Shown here: piece by piece, positions 9,438 to 20,923 of the stretch
Numbering within the stretch: the stretch's first letter is position 1
How the letters are laid out: every line of letters starts with the position of its first letter
From: a virus
Length of the DNA: 24,451 bases
Direction: 5' to 3' (one strand)
IMG/VR virus record: IMGVR_UViG_3300017964_000074
Coordinates: 1-24,451 of that record
Notes under the pieces: model-generated
Told to the model about the DNA's origin: nothing
Seen by the model: the letters and a program-made list of their open reading frames with translations, nothing else
The model's database searches: none
Made by a program: the position numbers and the translations under genes

Positions 9438-11057
9438 CTATGTAATTGCGTATTGGAAAATTGTGTCCGTGTTACGACCAACAACGTAGTATTTTGTGCC
9501 ATCAGGCTTGACATATAATCCGTGCAAGGTCGTTTCTGTCTCTATGTGATCTTTTTCTGCCGAATAAGTTGCTGTGCTGATGTCCCACGGAGTCGATAGC
9601 TCGTATTCCACGACAGCGCTACTACCTATTGACCGCGTTACAAAAAATTTTGTTCCGTCAGACTTAAAGCGCACTTCGCCCGGATTGTTTGCATTGCTAG
9701 CTAATCCACTAGAATCCTGATAATGACTCGCCGTGCTTATGTCCCACGCGGTGCTTAGGCTGTATTCGCTAATTTTGTCGCCTGTCACGCCGCATACATA
9801 CATTTTTGTGCCATCAGGCTTAAATTCGACACCAAGCGGAGTGGCTTGTTGGCTAGAAACGGAAAGGGTACGGACATAACTCAAAGTGCTTATGTCCCAC
9901 GCTGTTGATAGGCTGTATTGATAGACAGAAGCGTTGGTGCTTCCGGTCACATACAGTGCGGTTCCGTCTGGTTTTATGTAAAGCCCTTGAGGAGTGGTCT
10001 CCTGTGTGCCTACTGAAGTCTTCTGCGAATACGTTGCGGTAGCGACCTCCCATGCGGTGCTTAAATTGTACTCATTGATGTCGTCACCAGCGTGTCCCAT
10101 CAAATACATTTTAGTACCGTCTGTGCTGAAAACTATGGAATTGCTATTGCCCTCTTCAGATATAATTGATAATTGCTTAACGCCAAATAGATAGGAATCT
10201 ATATTATCTTGGTAGTACCCAATTATAAAAAGTTGTTTTTGGTCTGAGGCTATATACAGCGCCGAAGGCAATGATTCGTATGTGCTAAGAGAGGCAGAAG
10301 TTTGCGAATAACTTGCAGTGCTAATGTCCCACGCTGTAGACAGGGTGTACTGGTTAATATCATCGCCAGTTGAGCCAAGTATCCACATTGTTTCGCCGTC
10401 ATCTGAAAAAAATAAATCCTGCGGAAACGTCTCTTGCGCGGACACGGAAAAGTTTTGTGAATAACTTGCGGTGCTTACATCCCATGCTGTGCTTAGGGCG
10501 TATTCGTTTACCTCATCACCATCAGAGCCGGTGATGAACATTTTAGTGCCATCCGGTTTAAACCTAATTCCCCTTGGCAAGGTCTCTTGTGTAGCAACTG
10601 AAAAGCCTTGGTTATAACTAGCCGTACTAACGTCCCACGCAGTGGACATATCATATTCATACACAGTGTCGCTGGTACCACCGGCTATATAAAATTTAGT
10701 GCCGTCAGGCTTAAACACCAACGCGGCGGAAGTTGCTTCTTCCGAGCTGATATCAAAAGCATAATCTAAAGATGCAGTCGTTGTATCCCATGCAGTGCTT
10801 AATCCGTACTCTTTTACATTGTCGCCACCTGATCCAGTAACGTACATTTTGGTGCCGTCAGGCTTAAAAAATAATCCCCCCGCATTGCCGCCGATGTTCG
10901 TTGATGTATTTACACCAATATGAGTAATCGCCGACACATCTCCGAGCAGTGCAGAGTCAACTTCTAACTCTGCATAAGAAATATCCCAAGCGTTAGACTG
11001 GGTAGCGGCGCTCACATTGCCTGCGGCGGCTAGCAATCCCCTATCTAGCGGTTTCAT
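9438..11057 (-). CDS. Fibre-type beta-propeller protein with ten 51-residue repeats
   Basis: This 539-residue protein starts at an ATG overlapping the previous stop by four bases. From residue 64 the sequence is a chain of repeats with the form [FIV]KPDGTKMYVTGSxGDxVxEY, LSTAWDISTASYxQ, SVxxQETxP. Unit starts fall at about 64, 115, 166, 217, 269, 310, 361, 412, 464 and 515. The spacing is 51 residues except for unit 5, which is shortened by about ten residues and has lost the STAWDIS segment. The last unit stops at QYAIT, and the N-terminus carries an isolated AWDISYAELE (22-31). The ends could thus close a ring in the way propellers do. 'F.PDG..(M/L)YV' is the typical blade core. It is most likely a receptor- or surface-binding fibre tip. 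Ring size is inferred, not proven. Confidence 0.75.
   Translation of the reverse strand: MKPLDRGLLAAAGNVSAATQSNAWDISYAELEVDSALLGDVSAITHIGVNTSTNIGGNAGGLFFKPDGTKMYVTGSGGDNVKEYGLSTAWDTTTASLDYAFDISSEEATSAALVFKPDGTKFYIAGGTSDTVYEYDMSTAWDVSTASYNQGFSVATQETLPRGIRFKPDGTKMFITGSDGDEVNEYALSTAWDVSTASYSQNFSVSAQETFPQDLFFSDDGETMWILGSTGDDINQYTLSTAWDISTASYSQTSASLSTYESLPSALYIASDQKQLFIIGYYQDNIDSYLFGVKQLSIISEEGNSNSIVFSTDGTKMYLMGHAGDDINEYNLSTAWEVATATYSQKTSVGTQETTPQGLYIKPDGTALYVTGSTNASVYQYSLSTAWDISTLSYVRTLSVSSQQATPLGVEFKPDGTKMYVCGVTGDKISEYSLSTAWDISTASHYQDSSGLASNANNPGEVRFKSDGTKFFVTRSIGSSAVVEYELSTPWDISTATYSAEKDHIETETTLHGLYVKPDGTKYYVVGRNTDTIFQYAIT
9441..10868 (-). repeat. Ten ~153-bp propeller-type repeats
   Basis: The coding region contains ten imperfect units of about 51 codons each, covering residues 64-539 of the propeller protein. 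On the plus strand they can be followed by the recurrent complement of TTTAAGCCTGATGGCACAAA-like segments (for example near 9500, 9800, 10550, 10700 and 10850). DNA identity between units is moderate and concentrated in the PDGTK and STAWDIS parts. The fifth unit (around 10180-10255) is the most degenerate. The pattern fits old tandem duplication followed by selection for the fold. Confidence 0.85.
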
Positions 11058-11640: not shown

Positions 11641-14253
11641 TTAACCCCCAAGCGCGGCTGATGGCGGTGTGAAATTAGCTGTGTATCTAGCAAGACCTTT
11701 GGTGATGCGAACGTCAGACATATAACCTCCAAAATAATCCGCACCGGTATATCGACTACCTAGAGTTATTCGCGTAGTACTAGACAAATTTGTAGTATTA
11801 GTTATTTGCCACTCTGCTGTGCCATCAATGTATACCGTTATATTATTTGTTCCACTTCCGTTTCTAACATATGCGAAGTGGTACCATTGATTAAGAGAAA
11901 GAGTCGTAACGGAGGAGTCATTTACATTTCCGTAGCCAGCATAAAGGCCCGTACCATTATTAAGATATAGGTAGGTAACATCTGTGCCCCCGTTTCTACC
12001 ATCAAAAATATACTGATAAGCTCCGGTGGAAGTAGTATAAAACCATCCTTCCACGGTAAAGTCCTCCGATCCAAAAGTAAGTAAGTTACTTGTTGGTGTT
12101 TGAACGTAATCGCCTGTCCCATCAAAATACATTGACGAAGTGAGGTACTTACTTTGAGTCGTAGAAGATTTAACGTCGCCGTTTAAGGTGATCGTTTTGA
12201 CAGACTGTGACTTGTCGATAATGCCTGCGTCATCAAACGGCAGGAGCAAGCCAGTTCCAGAAATTGCTGTTAGTGGTGCGGTTGGAGGTGTGAAGGCAGA
12301 TGTGTAGACAGCAGTGCCTTGAACCACTCTCACATCCGCAATATAGCCAGAGTATAAGTAGTGAACGCCAGCATATACATTTGTGCCAATTGTTGCATAG
12401 CCTGTTGAAAAATTAGCAGTGCTAGTGCCTTGTCCTGATGCCACGCCGTTAACATAAATGGTCATGTTGTTAGTTGCAGTGCCGTTCCTCACTAATGCAA
12501 CATGATTCCACTGTCCGACTTTTACAGCGCCAGACGTTGAATTAAAAATAGACGACGCCGCTGTTTGGACGGCTAATGTTGTACTACTTGTACCAAGATT
12601 GCCAAACCGCAACGCATTGCTATCCCCTTGCCCTTCGCTAGTATTTGAATAAATCGCTGCATAATTTGCCATTGTTGCAGTCGGTGGATATATCCAGCAC
12701 TCAAAAGTAAAATCTCCGCTTCCTAGAGCTAAACTTGAGTCCGTTCCCGCATTCAAATAATCACCCGTGCCGTCAAAGTACGCAGACCCGCCGTTGTTGC
12801 TAGCTGAATAGGTTTGGTAATCGTAGGGGCCGAAGGGTTCTGTCTTGGTGTTGCCGTTTACAGTAATAGCGTGGCTGTTAGTTGAACCGTCTGCTATGTA
12901 AGGCAAGTGACAGGTTAATAAGCTAGTGTTAGTGATTGCTGTAAGGCGTTCTGTTGTTGGGGTGAAAGCGGAAGTGTAAACAGCGGCGCCTTTGACGATA
13001 CGAATATCCGCAATATATCCTTGATAGTAACCGTTGCCGTTGAAGTCATATCCGATTCTTGTGCCGCCGCCCCCACTGCTATCGGTAAATGTGGTGCTAT
13101 TTGTTGCACTATCGACAACCGAGCCGTTTAGGAACATTTGCAGAGATGTCCCGCTTCTTGTAACAGCTACATGATTCCATTGGTTATCTATTACCGTTCC
13201 ACCTGATAGCAAGAATGAGCTAAAGAAAAACTTTAGAGCGTTTGAGCTGTTTTCTATGTAGATAGTCCATCCATTAACGCCGTTTCCGTTGCCCCCAATG
13301 ATGGATTGATAAGTGCCTGATGTATCACCCTCTCTGTACAGCCATAACTCAACGCAAAAATCCCCATCAAAATCGAAACCAGAATCATCAGGAACACCTA
13401 AATAATCACCCGTCCCATCAAAATAAGTCGAATACCCACCATGCCTATATGGGCTGAAGGTGCTCTGCGTTGCGTCACCATTTGCAGTAATGGTGTGATT
13501 GTTTCCAGAGCTATCGCGGAATAATTTATTGCTGGTAAAGCCGTTATCTGCCGTAGTAATTAACGCTGTGGTGTAGTTGCTATTCACGACCGAGAATTGA
13601 AGCTCAAACGTCGAGCTTGCCGACGCTACATTGACGCCATCACTGGCCCTAAACACCAGAGTAAAGTTACCCGCATTCGCAGAGTTAGTGCTGGGAGTAA
13701 TCGTCCACTGATTGGTATTTGCACCAGTGCCCTGAGTGACAGTTGCAATGTTTCCAGACGTATCACTAACAATACTGTAGGTGAGAGGTAAACCCTCTGG
13801 GTCAGTTGCGGTAACCGTAACGACCGTAGCCGTGCCGTCTGTAGCAAGGGTGTAAGTGGCGTTTACGCCGCTAATTGATGGCGTGATGTTTACCAGAGTG
13901 ATCGAATACCACCCCGCATCACTGAAGATGTAGAGCTTGTCGGTAGAATCAACCAGCGCCATCGAGCCTTCTGCGACACCAGATAACGGCAGATCGTCAA
14001 TCGTTGCGTAGACCGTTACGCCAGCAGATGAGTCAGCCGGTTGCCACTCACTGTCTGTGCTGTTCCACTGAAGCACTTGACCGTTAGTAGGCGCTACCGT
14101 GGACGTATCTACGTCTGTCAGCGCGTCAATAGCCTGAGTCAGACCTTGGGGGCTGTCAGACCAAACGCCTTGAGTGGAGTCGTAAGCGTAAGTGATTCCG
14201 CTGACGGTAATGGTCTGTCCGTTAGTGGGGTTGCTTGGAAAATCAACTGCCAT
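11641..14253 (-). CDS. Tail fibre/adhesin with three LamG-like domains
   Basis: This is an 870-residue protein with a good AGAGG ribosome site. In order it has the shared fibre head (residues 3-32, FPSNPTNGQTITVSGITYAY), one DVDTSTVAPTNGQVLQWN module (46-73) and a linker with VYATIDDLPLSGVAEGSMAL. A cadherin/Ig-like domain follows (about 124-222, VTVTATDPEGLPLTYSIVSD). Three concanavalin/LamG_3-like domains then run at about 228-436, 445-666 and 669-868. Each LamG unit repeats the same landmarks: S..H.IT.NG, YFDGTGDYL (277, 492, 709), 'QW(N/Y)H.A..R.G' (358, 581, 788) and GYIADIRIVKG..(V/R)YTSAFTPP near its end. LamG domains of this sort bind glycans, so the protein is a plausible host-polysaccharide adhesin. 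No catalytic residues of a depolymerase are evident. Confidence 0.85.
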   Translation of the reverse strand: MAVDFPSNPTNGQTITVSGITYAYDSTQGVWSDSPQGLTQAIDALTDVDTSTVAPTNGQVLQWNSTDSEWQPADSSAGVTVYATIDDLPLSGVAEGSMALVDSTDKLYIFSDAGWYSITLVNITPSISGVNATYTLATDGTATVVTVTATDPEGLPLTYSIVSDTSGNIATVTQGTGANTNQWTITPSTNSANAGNFTLVFRASDGVNVASASSTFELQFSVVNSNYTTALITTADNGFTSNKLFRDSSGNNHTITANGDATQSTFSPYRHGGYSTYFDGTGDYLGVPDDSGFDFDGDFCVELWLYREGDTSGTYQSIIGGNGNGVNGWTIYIENSSNALKFFFSSFLLSGGTVIDNQWNHVAVTRSGTSLQMFLNGSVVDSATNSTTFTDSSGGGGTRIGYDFNGNGYYQGYIADIRIVKGAAVYTSAFTPTTERLTAITNTSLLTCHLPYIADGSTNSHAITVNGNTKTEPFGPYDYQTYSASNNGGSAYFDGTGDYLNAGTDSSLALGSGDFTFECWIYPPTATMANYAAIYSNTSEGQGDSNALRFGNLGTSSTTLAVQTAASSIFNSTSGAVKVGQWNHVALVRNGTATNNMTIYVNGVASGQGTSTANFSTGYATIGTNVYAGVHYLYSGYIADVRVVQGTAVYTSAFTPPTAPLTAISGTGLLLPFDDAGIIDKSQSVKTITLNGDVKSSTTQSKYLTSSMYFDGTGDYVQTPTSNLLTFGSEDFTVEGWFYTTSTGAYQYIFDGRNGGTDVTYLYLNNGTGLYAGYGNVNDSSVTTLSLNQWYHFAYVRNGSGTNNITVYIDGTAEWQITNTTNLSSTTRITLGSRYTGADYFGGYMSDVRITKGLARYTANFTPPSAALGG
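11650..13572 (-). repeat. Three tandem LamG-domain coding units
   Basis: The three units, each about 600-670 bases, encode the LamG-like domains at residues 228-436, 445-666 and 669-868. They are alignable at protein level through YFDGTGDYL, WNHVA and YTSAFTPP. The DNA has diverged widely, so the triplication is old or the units were acquired separately. Confidence 0.75.
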
Positions 14254-14263
14254 TAGTACGCCT

Positions 14264-16435
14264 CTATCCTATTTGCACCCATTGACTGCTGTCACCGTCA
14301 CTGTAATAAACAGCCATGATTAAGTCGGCTGTATCCCACCAAAGGTCACCGGAACTGGGATTGCTCGGTGCAGTTTCCTGAACAGCAACACTTGCTCCCG
14401 ACCCGCTCCCAGAGGGGTTAGCCTTAACCCACTGCGACGAAGAACCGTCGTTGTAATAAACATAGAGCCGCAGAGTGGTTGTGTCGTACCAAAGGTCGCC
14501 ATCGGACGGGGAGCTTGGTGCTGTATCTGCGGTAGTTACAGACGCACCGCCACCACCCGACTGTGCGACCCAATCGTAATCTGTGCCGTTCCAGCTTAAT
14601 ACTTCGTTTGTTGCCGCCGTGCTGGTGTTAAGGTGAGCATCTACACTGGCGTCGTTATAACTGCCGCCTGATGGCGAGGCCGCATCCCAGCGACTATTTG
14701 CGTTATCCCACGTAAGCACTTGCCCGTCTGTCGGGGTCATAGTGTTTACATCAGACAAATCTTCGATGCTTTGTCCGGTAATGCCTGTTAAGTAGCTAGA
14801 TAAATCTGGCGGCGTGTAGCTAAACGCGCCTGTAGAGTTGTTATAGCTAAGAGCCGCAGTACCAGCGGCATTAGTCGTAACAGACAGATCCGTTAGTGCT
14901 ATGCCACCAGCGTCAGCGGCGTTCACCCATGCAGTACCGTTGTATTTCAGTACCTGTCCATTAGACGCTGATGTAATCGTTACGTCTGAAACGTCGTCTA
15001 GCGCTACGCTTGTTAGGTAACTGGATAAGTCTGGAGGCGTAAAGGTGAACACCCCTGTGGTGTTACTGTATGTAAGCGCCGCCGTTCCCGCGCTGGTGGT
15101 CGTAACAGAGTGATCAAAAAGGGTGGAACTCCAAGCGTAATCCGTGCCAGTCCAAGTAAGAACTTTATTTTGGCTTGCGGTGATGATATTTAAATGATTG
15201 TCAACTTGATCATGTATGTAAGCGCCTATATTGCGGGCATCCCAACGGCTGTTCGTAGGATCCCACCCGAGCACATAGTTAGTTGCTCCCGTGATGGAGC
15301 TATTTACGTCGGATAAGTCTCCGATGCTTTGACTTGAAATGCCGGTAAGGTAGCTAGACAGGTCTGGCGGGGTGTAACTAAATGTACCAGTCGTATTGTT
15401 GTAGCTCAGCGCCGCCGTGCCTGCCGCATTAGTTGTGACAGAGATATCAGTTAAGGCGATGCCGCCAGATTGCGCTACCCAGTCATAGTCTGAGCCATTC
15501 CAGCTAAGGACTTCGTTCGTTGCTGCCGAACTTTGGTTTAGGTGAAAGTCTACATAGCTGTTTACATTGTTAGGCGTTATGCCAACTTGCGCGTCCCACC
15601 GGCTATTCGTAGCGTCCCACCCAAGAACGTGATTACCCGATCCAGTAATAGAGCTGTTTACGTCAGATAAATCTCCGATGCTCTCGTTGGTAATGCCGGT
15701 CAGATATGTTCCAAGATCGCTAATCTGAGATTCAGTGATCGAAAGGGCGGCTTGGTGAGTCGTTACGTCGCTTTGGGTAACCGTGTAGCTAGTTATATAG
15801 CTAGATAGGTCTGGGGGCGTATAGCTGAATACCCCTGTGCTGTTGCTGTATGAAAGTGCCGCTGTGCCTGCGGTATTAGTGGTAACAGAGAGGTCGGTCA
15901 ACGCAATGCCGCCACTCGCTGTAGCTGGCTCCCACTGACTGTTTGCATTGTCCCAAGTTAATACCTGCCCATCAGTCGGCGCTGTCGTTGATGTATCTAC
16001 ATCACTGAGATCATCAATCTGCGCGGCTCTGGGGATGATAATTTCCCCTGCCATAGAGCCGTGATACTGACAGTTGTAGTAGAGCTTGGATGGCGCGTCC
16101 TGTGGCACAACAAACTTAATGGTTCCGGTTGCCGCTCCATTGTTGGTAACACCATCAGAGTAGGCGTTGCCGGTGCCGGTTCCAGATGTGGAGTTGATGT
16201 AAAACGGATGACCTGTAGCATCTACGGCAAACTCGTAAGTCTTGCCTCTATGCAGGTAAAGCGTCGGGTTACTGTCGCTATCGGTGCCGAATCCGTTGAA
16301 GACGTAAGCGCTTGAGCCACTAGCAGTGACCGCGAAGTACCCGTCAGACGTGGCAACGTCCCACACACCAAGTGTGGCGTTGTAGATGAATCCGTTGAAA
16401 AGATCTCCGCCTGATGGATTGTCTGGGAAGTTCAT
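14264..16435 (-). CDS. Long modular tail fibre with cupredoxin-like domain
   Basis: This is a 723-residue protein. Residues 1-30 are the short form of the shared fibre head (MNFPDNPSGGDLFNGFIYNA). Residues about 33-135 form a cupredoxin-like beta domain (NPTLYLHRGKTYEFAVDATG, HPFYI, TIKFVVPQDAPSKLYY, NCQYHGSMAGEIIIP) with the ligand pattern His76, Cys122, His125, Met128. From 140 to 620 it is built of alternating modules: DDLSDVD..PTDGQVLTWDN...W and four copies of LTDLSVTTN.AGTAALSY / FSYTPPDLSSYLT, plus VD.HLN.S.AATNEVLSWNG. The last 90 residues carry two APS.PS.GDLW(Y/W)DT / YY.DG.SSQWV units. Such proteins are trimeric fibre shafts. The ribosome site is AGGTG. It lies between two pairs of related fibres. 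Confidence 0.85.
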   Translation of the reverse strand: MNFPDNPSGGDLFNGFIYNATLGVWDVATSDGYFAVTASGSSAYVFNGFGTDSDSNPTLYLHRGKTYEFAVDATGHPFYINSTSGTGTGNAYSDGVTNNGAATGTIKFVVPQDAPSKLYYNCQYHGSMAGEIIIPRAAQIDDLSDVDTSTTAPTDGQVLTWDNANSQWEPATASGGIALTDLSVTTNTAGTAALSYSNSTGVFSYTPPDLSSYITSYTVTQSDVTTHQAALSITESQISDLGTYLTGITNESIGDLSDVNSSITGSGNHVLGWDATNSRWDAQVGITPNNVNSYVDFHLNQSSAATNEVLSWNGSDYDWVAQSGGIALTDISVTTNAAGTAALSYNNTTGTFSYTPPDLSSYLTGISSQSIGDLSDVNSSITGATNYVLGWDPTNSRWDARNIGAYIHDQVDNHLNIITASQNKVLTWTGTDYAWSSTLFDHSVTTTSAGTAALTYSNTTGVFTFTPPDLSSYLTSVALDDVSDVTITSASNGQVLKYNGTAWVNAADAGGIALTDLSVTTNAAGTAALSYNNSTGAFSYTPPDLSSYLTGITGQSIEDLSDVNTMTPTDGQVLTWDNANSRWDAASPSGGSYNDASVDAHLNTSTAATNEVLSWNGTDYDWVAQSGGGGASVTTADTAPSSPSDGDLWYDTTTLRLYVYYNDGSSSQWVKANPSGSGSGASVAVQETAPSNPSSGDLWWDTADLIMAVYYSDGDSSQWVQIG
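14786..15907 (-). repeat. Four copies of a 39-residue fibre module
   Basis: Copies of the ALTDLSVTT.AGTAALSY / TG.FSYTPPDLSSYLT module lie at 15907-15791, 15460-15344, 15115-15011 and 14902-14786 (the third lacks the first few residues). A fifth copy is in the short fibre at 11524-11408. Protein identity is high, while the third codon positions differ freely between copies. This points to long-standing purifying selection rather than fresh duplication. Spacer modules between copies (DLSDVNSSITG, NEVLSWNG) also recur. Confidence 0.9.
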
Positions 16436-16442
16436 TATTAAT

Positions 16443-17339
16443 TCACCTTATCGGCTTCAATGCGAGAAACACTTGCATTTCTGGGGCACATTGACGAAAG
16501 CTGGTTTTTGAAAATCGAAGCGTAGACCCGCCGTTGACAATATTTATGAACGTGGATTTTTTCCAGTGGGGTTGGCTAGTCGTATATAGGTTTGCAAAAC
16601 TGCCCGAGGATGGCAGGGAATTGCTGCTAGAAGATACTGTATGAACCACACTGTAATTACTGTTCTCAAAAGACACAGGCTTCTGCAAAGTGCTGCCAAT
16701 TCTGTATTCCGCTGAACAGTAACTACTCTGGCCGGTCGATAAGCCGTCTGGATAAAATGACAAACGGTAGCCAGCTAGAAAAATTTGACAAAAAACCATC
16801 CAAACGCCACTACCTAGCACCTTGTTAGCAAAATATATGTCAGTGCCGCCGTTGTATTGCGTATATGTTGAATCACCTTGCGCCACGTCACTTGGGGAAG
16901 GTGCGGAGCTTGAGTAGGTTTCGTATTCTGCTTCAGCAGAATCATCGTCCCACTCATTAGCGTTGTATGTGAGCCTTGAGGAGTAAGTCCCTGCATTGGA
17001 GGCGAGAGAAGGCATTCCAGCTAATAAAGTCGAAGCGCCGCCTCGTCCCGTACCCCCGAGTGCCACCCAAGCGCCAGCAGTGCTATCATAAACATAAGTC
17101 ACTCCATTGCTTTCTGAAAACCAAGGCTGGCCGTCGATAGGGTTTGAGGGCTTTGTAGACGAAGTCTCTACAAATGAATCGGCGACTAAATTAGCCCAAG
17201 ATCCGTTCTCTCTTATGTACTGCGTACCATCTGAGGGCGCGTCTTCTAACTTATCTGCATTCAAGTTAGAGAAGTTTGCGTCCATCTCTACAACAGACAG
17301 CGGCGCACTTTTACTGGCAGTTGTAACGATTGTTGTCAT
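16443..17339 (-). CDS. Tail fibre, paralogue B with distinct C-terminal domain
   Basis: This 298-residue protein starts at an ATG overlapping the previous fibre's stop by four bases. Its first 50 residues (TTIVTTASKSAPLSVVEMDA, NFSNLNADKLEDAPSDGTQY) are clearly homologous to those of the gene just upstream (ATIVTRSGKGSPLTNTEVDS, NFTNLNTDKIEDAPSDGTTY). Next comes a module KPSNPIDGQPWFSESNGVTY that matches the GDVWYSESNGVTYVYYD of the neighbour. The C-terminal part from about residue 105 is unrelated to the neighbour's. It has acidic DDDSAEAEYETYSSS, then GSGVWMVFCQIFLAGYRLSF and ends APEMQVFLALKPIR, consistent with a beta-sandwich (C1q/TNF-like) head. It is likely one of a set of alternative or hetero-fibre tips. 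Confidence 0.75.
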   Translation of the reverse strand: MTTIVTTASKSAPLSVVEMDANFSNLNADKLEDAPSDGTQYIRENGSWANLVADSFVETSSTKPSNPIDGQPWFSESNGVTYVYDSTAGAWVALGGTGRGGASTLLAGMPSLASNAGTYSSRLTYNANEWDDDSAEAEYETYSSSAPSPSDVAQGDSTYTQYNGGTDIYFANKVLGSGVWMVFCQIFLAGYRLSFYPDGLSTGQSSYCSAEYRIGSTLQKPVSFENSNYSVVHTVSSSSNSLPSSGSFANLYTTSQPHWKKSTFINIVNGGSTLRFSKTSFRQCAPEMQVFLALKPIR

Positions 17340-18190
17340 AATCCAAAAGGCTTCTCAAATGTTACTAACGGAGTTATGGTTGAACTGCTATTTGAATACT
17401 GCCAGCCGACGCCGATTCTCAATCTATTGGTGCTGGTATTTGTTACGTCAAATACATAAAACTCATCGTTCGTCTGGGTTCCGGTGGAGCTATAACGAAT
17501 TGCTGTCAAGCCGGTCGCAGTTACAGTAGAAAAACTTGATCCGCTGTTGGTGCTTTTCTCTATTCTGCTGTAGAGGGTGTTATTAGAGCTGGAAGAGAAA
17601 TAAAGCGTAGAGCTTAATCGGACTACCCACTTCCCCGTCTCAGAAAAGCTAAATACCCCAGATGAATCGGTTACCCAGCTACCGCTGTTGTAAGATTCCG
17701 TGAACGATGTAGCGTAGGTATTAGTCGTGCTTCCCGAAGCCGATCTAGCAGAACCTGCGAATTGAGCAAATCTTGGCTGTTGGTTTACCCAAGCACTACC
17801 GTTGTACTCCAAAAAATCGCCCGTTGCTAAATTGCTTAGGGTGACATCAGACAATTCTGCTAAAGAAGACGCGCCTTTTGGACTGCTTACTGGTGCGCCA
17901 GTAGCCACCCATTGCGAAGACGTTCCGTCGTCGTAATACACATACGTGACACCATTACTTTCTGAATACCAAACGTCTCCATCAGATGGAGATGACGGTG
18001 CTGTGCTGGACGTTGTAATCGTGGCAGCAGCAGCAGTGACCGCCGCCCACGCACCAGACTGACGGGCATAGGTAGTTCCGTCAGATGGAGCGTCCTCGAT
18101 CTTGTCTGTATTCAGGTTAGTGAAATTAGAGTCCACCTCTGTGTTAGTCAGAGGTGAACCCTTTCCACTACGAGTGACAATGGTTGCCAT
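17336..18190 (-). CDS. Tail fibre, paralogue A with C1q-like C-terminal head
   Basis: This is a 284-residue fibre. The N-terminal module (1-50, ATIVTRSGKGSPLTNTEVDS then NFTNLNTDK) is a common start in marine phage fibres. It is followed by TAPSSPSDGDVWYSESNGVT, VYYDDGTSSQWVATG (62-99) and a LAELSDVTLSNLATGDFLEY, NGSAWVNQ module (108-137). Residues 140-284 look like a jelly-roll head: SSGVFSFSETGKWVVRLSST, LYFSSSSNNTLYSRIEKS and a last strand TPLVTFEKPFGL. The GxWxVxxS pattern and an aromatic/hydrophobic final strand resemble C1q-like trimeric heads; this is inference from pattern. It overlaps the next fibre by four bases. Confidence 0.75.
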   Translation of the reverse strand: MATIVTRSGKGSPLTNTEVDSNFTNLNTDKIEDAPSDGTTYARQSGAWAAVTAAAATITTSSTAPSSPSDGDVWYSESNGVTYVYYDDGTSSQWVATGAPVSSPKGASSLAELSDVTLSNLATGDFLEYNGSAWVNQQPRFAQFAGSARSASGSTTNTYATSFTESYNSGSWVTDSSGVFSFSETGKWVVRLSSTLYFSSSSNNTLYSRIEKSTNSGSSFSTVTATGLTAIRYSSTGTQTNDEFYVFDVTNTSTNRLRIGVGWQYSNSSSTITPLVTFEKPFGL

Positions 18191-19929: not shown

Positions 19930-20300
19930 CCGAAGGCTTCTCTCACTTTAAGCTTCAGCAGATCGTTGACGGTCTGAATTTCTCCGCCCTGAAACGTAGC
20001 CTCGATCTCAGCCTCAAAAACACCTGCCGTATCAAGAGTTCCGGTCGGAAAGTCAGTGCTCGCTATGCCGTTTTCAGCATCAGTCACCGTCATGGTGAGT
20101 GTCGCTTTGACTGTGGACGCGCCGATCTCCCTGATCCGCAAGCGCACAGTTGCGCCATTGAGGTCAATGGGTGCCCACGTAGAAGAGTCTTCTGGGTCTA
20201 GCGTCTGGCCGGTTGCCGCCTCAGATGCGTCCTTGAGGGTGATCACAACACGCGGAAGCGTGTCGCCCTGAACCAACTCTAGAGTGTCGGAGTACGCCAT
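19926..20300 (-). CDS. BppU N-terminal domain-like tail protein
   Basis: This is a 124-residue beta-sandwich candidate. It opens MAYSDTLELVQGDTLPRVVI, continues with PIDLNGATVRLRIREIGAST, TDAENGIASTDFPTGTLDTA and GVFEAEIEATFQGGEIQTVN, and ends LLKLKVREAFG. The 'G.t.p...itl.d', 'dL.ga.v...i', 'd...G.....' and 'pG.y..e......g' rhythm is that of the N-terminal domain of phage baseplate upper proteins (BppU_N) and its many stand-alone relatives in phages. In the baseplate protein this domain serves as an attachment plug. Here it probably anchors the neighbouring repeat protein or fibres to the tail. It is coupled at both ends: TAATG with the connector gene and ATGA with the repeat protein. Confidence 0.75.
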   Translation of the reverse strand: MAYSDTLELVQGDTLPRVVITLKDASEAATGQTLDPEDSSTWAPIDLNGATVRLRIREIGASTVKATLTMTVTDAENGIASTDFPTGTLDTAGVFEAEIEATFQGGEIQTVNDLLKLKVREAFG

Positions 20301-20923
20301 TAGATAAACGCCCTCGATTTAACAGTTAGGGATCCGCCGCTGTATCCGTATTTCACTTCGCGAGTCACCTGCCCTACCCGCTGGTCGAACAGCGCTTTGT
20401 TTGATTGAGCAGCACCCATGTTTGACCATGGCTGACTAACCATCATTTGCAGGCGGTATATCGCGCCGTGAACAAGCGGCTCTTTGTATTCCTCCCCAAT
20501 CGTGTCGGGAATGCTGGTCGATGACGGAGACGGCTTTACTGAATACAGAACCTTGAGCGTTTCTCGCTCAGAAGGCGTCGGGCTAAGATAGAAAACTGTG
20601 TTATCTCTCTGTGAGTAATACCTTGGCTTTGCTTTCTGGGTTCCGTCACCAGTTACCTCTAATAGGCGCGTGTATGAAACCGGCGAGAGAGTCTGTCTGT
20701 TTCGATAAATATCAATTATGTGATTCAGTTCTGTCCCTGTAGGGATCGTGACTTCGTACTCTGTAATGTTGGGGATTACGAGAAAGTCTTCAGGGTCGGG
20801 TCGATAGATATCTGTTTTGACGCAGAACTCTACCGCTGACTCTCGAAGCGCTCGCTCAATCAAAAAGTCAGGCGCTCCATGAGCCTCTGGCCTGACGTAC
20901 TCCGCAATCTCCAGATAGCGCAC
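20300..20923 (-). CDS. Second head-tail connector/adaptor protein
   Basis: This 207-residue protein starts with GTG at 20923, two bases after the stop of the first adaptor; an AAAGGGCG site precedes it. The N-terminal helix APDFLIERALRESAVEFCVK followed by TDIYR is typical of phage adaptors that sit under the portal. It continues with a beta domain (YEVTIPTGTELNHIIDIYRN, TVFYLSPTPSERETLKVLYS, VKPSP), a helical segment EEYKEPLVHGAIYRLQMM with QSNKALFDQRVGQVTREVKY, and a Ser-rich end. Residues in the middle and the helix order resemble the first adaptor, so the two may have a common origin. The role would be to join portal and tail nozzle. The exact family is uncertain. Confidence 0.7.
   Translation of the reverse strand: MRYLEIAEYVRPEAHGAPDFLIERALRESAVEFCVKTDIYRPDPEDFLVIPNITEYEVTIPTGTELNHIIDIYRNRQTLSPVSYTRLLEVTGDGTQKAKPRYYSQRDNTVFYLSPTPSERETLKVLYSVKPSPSSTSIPDTIGEEYKEPLVHGAIYRLQMMVSQPWSNMGAAQSNKALFDQRVGQVTREVKYGYSGGSLTVKSRAFI

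Follow-up and report, generated by a model that had tools for sequence, protein, structure and literature searches.

Cupredoxins are familiar as electron carriers and as domains of copper enzymes. Their copper is buried, and the type-1 sites of rusticyanin, amicyanin, plastocyanin and CuNiR are electron carriers. Copper-free domains with the cupredoxin fold exist as well, e.g., the ephrins, and these have typically lost the ligand set. Rusticyanin from Acidithiobacillus ferrooxidans (1rcy/1cur) is a free carrier in the periplasm, amicyanin from Paracoccus (1aac) serves methylamine dehydrogenase, and the N-terminal cupredoxin domain of the three-domain CuNiR from Hyphomicrobium (2dv6) is fused to other domains of a copper enzyme. 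Metal sites in phage fibres, such as the one predicted here, have a precedent in T4 gp37, which binds iron via HxH motifs, and marine phages were proposed to do likewise (PMC11705849). The gp37 site, with octahedral iron held by HxH motifs in the fibre trimer, is unrelated in structure and metal to the predicted cupredoxin site.

A tail fibre protein of 723 residues from a marine bacteriophage sequence is described here, of which residues 26–138 probably form a cupredoxin with a complete predicted type-1 site; the domain would be a module of marine phage virion proteins, and its copper would serve for stabilisation. Literature searches of open papers (titles and abstracts) turned up no report of a cupredoxin or blue-copper domain in phage fibres, baseplates or virions, and none of such a domain recurring, with its copper site intact, as a component of fibres and baseplate connectors.

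The fibre protein and its predicted fold

The fibre gene is located at 14264–16435 on the minus strand of the window, i.e., the whole stretch of 24,451 nucleotides that was analysed (IMG/VR record IMGVR_UViG_3300017964_000074). The open reading frame matched PHROG 9729 (tail fiber protein) with an E-value of 9.9e-85, in 8 stretches. Three parts, all on the minus strand, were distinguished: an N-terminal stretch (residues 1–25, MNFPDNPSGGDLFNGFIYNATLGVW; 16361–16435), which is conserved in 13 related fibres; the putative cupredoxin domain (residues 26–138; 16022–16360), supported by an AlphaFold2 model, PDB fold matches and PHROG 677; and the shaft with the tip (residues 139–723 including the stop codon; 14264–16021), recognised by its repeats and by the differing C-termini of relatives. 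Ser/Thr/Gly-rich fibre repeats follow directly downstream of the domain and lead to a variable C-terminal end; length and sequence of this whole part vary from relative to relative. A preliminary description had placed the domain at 16031–16339, which corresponds to residues 33–135, just after a head module; its position in the fibre was given correctly, while the "head module" comprises only about 25–30 residues.

The strings on which that description was based are present in the reading frame, namely LYLHRGKTYEFAV, ATGHPFYI with His76, and NCQYHGSMAGEI with Cys122, His125 and Met128. The candidate ligands, again on the minus strand, are thus His76 as the first, N-terminal one, in GHPFYI (16208–16210), Cys122 as the thiolate (16070–16072), His125 as the second histidine (16061–16063) and Met128 as the axial ligand (16052–16054). 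Their assignment was based on conservation, for His76 also on the alignment with rusticyanin, and for Cys122 on the fact that it is the sole cysteine of the 723-residue fibre. A chance motif was rejected on account of shuffling and of the conservation among relatives: CxxHxxM arose once in 20,000 shuffled fibre sequences, and in none of 20,000 together with a histidine 30–60 residues upstream. In a six-frame translation of the window the fibre motif was the only uninterrupted CxxHxxM.

An AlphaFold2 model of residues 26–138, for which an alignment of 66 relatives was the input, reached a mean pLDDT of 91.9 and a pTM of 0.87, and the predicted structure is, over the whole domain, the Greek-key beta-sandwich of the cupredoxin superfamily. 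Foldseek listed 42 matches in the PDB at E ≤ 0.001, led by rusticyanin, and each of those listed was a copper cupredoxin or belonged, as a cupredoxin domain, to a copper enzyme. With VIA-align, the highest Z score (10.3; rmsd 2.8 and 24% identity over 95 residues) was obtained for the N-terminal domain of the Hyphomicrobium CuNiR, and a Z score of 9.8 (rmsd 2.5 over 96 residues) for rusticyanin. The cupredoxin fold suspected earlier is thus supported by structure prediction, fold search and profile matches, and an attempt to refute the fold with the predicted model failed.

Similarity at the level of sequence was more remote. A single-sequence phmmer search of the PDB with the fibre domain gave chance matches only, so that profiles were needed; with the profile of the 66 relatives, all 12 matches to PDB sequences were copper proteins, with weak E-values (best, 0.0066). 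The weakness of the sequence E-values to solved cupredoxins counts against the cupredoxin reading. Also against it, the domain of the window had no match to the cupredoxin models of Pfam, including PF00127 (Copper-bind; cut-off 21.2 bits), nor did the fibre match the NCBIfam model TIGR02657 (amicyanin equivalog; cut-off 110.2 bits). PF00127 matches at E ≤ 1 were found for 17 of the 66 relatives, and one phage homologue (L025) scored 24.9 bits, above the curated PF00127 cut-off, and 20.1 bits with TIGR02657. A match with an E-value of 4.1e-44 was obtained between the fibre domain and the C-terminal domain of PHROG 677 (baseplate wedge tail fibre connector, gp9). Since the best match spanned only positions 307–409 of the 412 of that profile, it is the domain which is common to both proteins and not the body of the connector, and the fibre as a whole does not belong to PHROG 677. 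Matches to the model in BFVD were predicted viral structures, including cyanophage gp9 and fibres. Also matching the domain fold there were "Beta-sandwich proteins" of Pithovirus LCPAC302/304 and Marseillevirus LCMAC201/202 (TMq 0.64–0.71).

Two of the solved proteins resemble the fibre domain in different ways. In the family HMM, GHSFDI of rusticyanin corresponds to GHPFYI of the fibre, with the histidine columns aligned directly, and YYYVCQ..GH...M.GKI corresponds to YYNCQYHGSMAGEI; however, the ligand loop is C-x4-H-x4-M in rusticyanin and C-x2-H-x2-M in the fibre domain. Amicyanin is similar in size and has the same ligand loop, its CTPHPFM falling without a gap onto the CxxHxxM loop of the family HMM, and the amicyanin-like spacing pointed out in the preliminary description was thus right. 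Around the first histidine amicyanin differs (MPHNVHF); in the HMMER alignment this residue is off the His76 column, as is His37 of plastocyanin, by two residues, and the GHPFYI region is closer to rusticyanin than to amicyanin. Both the CuNiR domain and the fibre domain are fused, the former within an enzyme and the latter within a virion protein. The C-terminal domain of cyanophage gp9 (PHROG 677) is homologous to the fibre domain, with four invariant ligands and the same predicted fold, but there it stands at the C-terminus of a T4 gp9-like myovirus connector and here in the N-terminal part of a fibre.

Conservation of the ligand residues

A set of 83 non-redundant relatives was compared (less than 80% identical to each other, median pairwise identity 47%). 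All four ligands were kept in 78 of these; singly, His76 was kept in 82 of 83 relatives, and Cys122, His125 and Met128 in 81 of 82, 82 of 82 and 80 of 81 aligned relatives, respectively. Among the viral members 57 of 59 had the complete set, and one of the two exceptions was a truncated sequence. The entropy of the ligand columns was 0–0.1 bit; residues between the ligands varied freely (1.9–2.7 bits). The domain has, accordingly, the conserved sequence pattern of a type-1 copper site, i.e., a histidine followed by Cys-x(n)-His-x(n)-Met. The domain accounted for every cysteine of the protein in 44 of 83 phage proteins that carry it. Among close relatives, dN/dS was 0.02–0.08 in every pair where dS was computable, and the codons of Cys122 and His125 showed synonymous changes; judged from these comparisons, purifying selection is strong.

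A bias was possible, because the patterns used in the profile search contained the ligand motifs GHPF and YYNC..H, and less biased checks were therefore made by tblastn without such seeds and by collecting gp9 sequences with seeds outside the ligands. Among reference loci retrieved from the phage collection by tblastn, all four ligands were kept in 17 of 19; the exceptions were PSS2, a weak match (E 0.07), and S-CAM1. Of gp9, 74 distinct sequences were found with the ligand-free seeds, every one with all four ligands, and in 72 of them the ligand cysteine was the only one. These results argue against search-seed bias as the source of the conservation. The complete ligand set claimed in the preliminary description would appear to be genuine, and the comparison with relatives failed to refute it.

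In the copy of Synechococcus phage S-CAM1 (positions 1501–1770 of the locus compared), HPF was kept and the Cys, His and Met ligands were lost; the fold may survive there without copper, or the domain may be decaying. A few cellular copies have lost one ligand.

Distribution and position of the domain

With tblastn the domain was found in 351 phage records, mostly from phages of Synechococcus and Prochlorococcus. Cyanomyoviruses have it as the last domain of gp9, the connector between baseplate wedge and tail fibre, the N-terminal part of which matches gp9 and gp10 of T4. An independent model of the C-terminal 100 residues of gp9 was again a cupredoxin, with amicyanin as the top Foldseek match and a Z score of 10.3 to CuNiR; the T4 gp9-like N-terminal part was modelled with low confidence (pLDDT about 40–50) and was left uninterpreted. 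In the cyanopodoviruses P-GSP1 and P-SCSP2 the domain is situated near the N-terminus of proteins, and large virion proteins have between one and three copies, in differing positions. Three copies within one virion protein of 1453–1955 residues were present at three loci (L110, L120 and L025). The preliminary description had regarded an intact copper site in a phage fibre as unusual; in one sense this does not hold, since tail proteins of marine phages widely carry the domain with its ligands intact, and the observation is more general than first thought.

Cellular relatives are mainly proteins of Bacteroidota which resemble lipoproteins; CHRD or DUF7282 domains occur in some of them. The resemblance to lipoproteins points to an extracytoplasmic setting, as in known cupredoxins. 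Close relatives came from Marivirga, Gillisia, Aurantibacter and others (L128–L158), again in apparent lipoproteins, two of which (L156 and L158) are small and consist of little beyond the domain.

Comparison of the 13 related fibres showed the cupredoxin domain and the N-terminal 30 residues to be constant, while the C-termini fall into several types. When a virion protein of the window (20300–20923) was used as a marker, the domain was at the same place in the 9 loci covering it with a marker identity of 72–99%. Five loci with 62–72% identical markers (L186, L187, L190, L192 and L195) had no cupredoxin domain within the stretch compared. The module thus seems to be stable within the lineage and apparently dispensable for the wider phage type. 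Relatives of the capsid protein (35–43% identity) were found in phages of Rhizobium, Puniceispirillum, Roseobacter and Pelagibacter, among others, and because of these varied hosts, none is named for the virus of the window.

Possible roles of the putative copper site, and neighbouring genes

The cupredoxin fold and the ligand set of the predicted domain are well supported, and the domain is likely to be occupied by copper. Given the intact ligands and the recurrence in hundreds of marine phages, virus particles may carry bound copper. The beta-sandwich would be a bead-like, compact unit at the N-terminus of the fibre, probably its virion-proximal end, and in cyanophage gp9 at the C-terminal end of the fibre connector; within virion fibres it could serve as a spacer or as a joint. 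Most likely, the protein would fold metal-free in the cytoplasm of the host and would take up copper outside the cell, after lysis, and the metal would then lock and stabilise the domain at the base or joint of the fibre. Stabilisation rather than chemistry is assumed as the default role. Two points should be considered: seawater offers little copper and the cytoplasm keeps its level very low, which counts against a copper-loaded domain, and in other relatives the domain lies midway along a large protein or at its end, so that the function as a joint would not be universal.

The site could also hold a different metal, perhaps zinc or nickel, or be empty, the four residues then being retained because the fold needs them for its packing, as in the copper-free ephrins. 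Loss of ligands in some copies, namely three in S-CAM1 and one in a few cellular proteins, would fit, and the identity of a metal cannot be named from sequence alone; but the joint retention of all four residues in nearly all viral members, with free variation between them, and the frequent occurrence of the ligand cysteine as the sole one of its protein make this quite unlikely, the more so as copper-free relatives of the fold typically lose these residues. Redox chemistry, in which the domain, on the host surface or in seawater under sunlight, would pass electrons or take up free copper or reactive oxygen, and so protect the particle or trigger a conformational step, is suggested by the electron-carrying sites of the closest solved folds and by the full ligand set including the axial methionine. 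It appears very improbable nevertheless, since no redox partner was recognisable among the other genes of the window, residues around the exposed histidine loop vary and the module recurs in many unrelated architectures.

Sensing of the host surface had been proposed in the preliminary description and has become less likely, as the domain belongs to the constant N-terminal part of the fibre and not to the variable tip, which argues against a role in host specificity, and as it also ends the gp9 connector. The same positions, far from the variable fibre end and away from a receptor-binding tip, speak against copper as a bait, a copper "Ferrojan horse" by which a copper-uptake or copper-binding surface protein of the host would recognise the metallated domain. 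The iron in T4 gp37 (PMC11705849) is a precedent for metal in tail fibres and the ligands in tail proteins are strongly constrained, but a cupredoxin buries its copper, and such a bait is highly unlikely.

If copper is indeed bound, each particle would contain a number of copper atoms, virus assembly and stability would be tied to marine copper, and some of the most abundant ocean viruses could depend on metal for infection. It seems doubtful, and on balance unlikely, that tail joints of marine phages, including many cyanomyoviruses via gp9, carry type-1 copper with an active part in infection (a redox trigger, recognition of host copper proteins or protection from photo-oxidation) and that virions constitute a pool of copper ligands in the surface ocean.

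Several neighbouring genes on the minus strand deserve mention. A 539-residue protein (9438–11057) in a structural gene cluster matched SMP-30/gluconolactonase and lactonase beta-propeller models. A protein of 870 residues (11641–14253) had three Laminin_G_3 (concanavalin A-like) matches, and its C-terminal part recurs in other phages, in baseplate wedge proteins and virion structural proteins. Two adjoining fibre-like proteins (16443–17339 and 17336–18190) have similar N-termini and a Fibritin_C-like motif just below the Pfam cut-off; they apparently represent a duplicated attachment segment with different tips.
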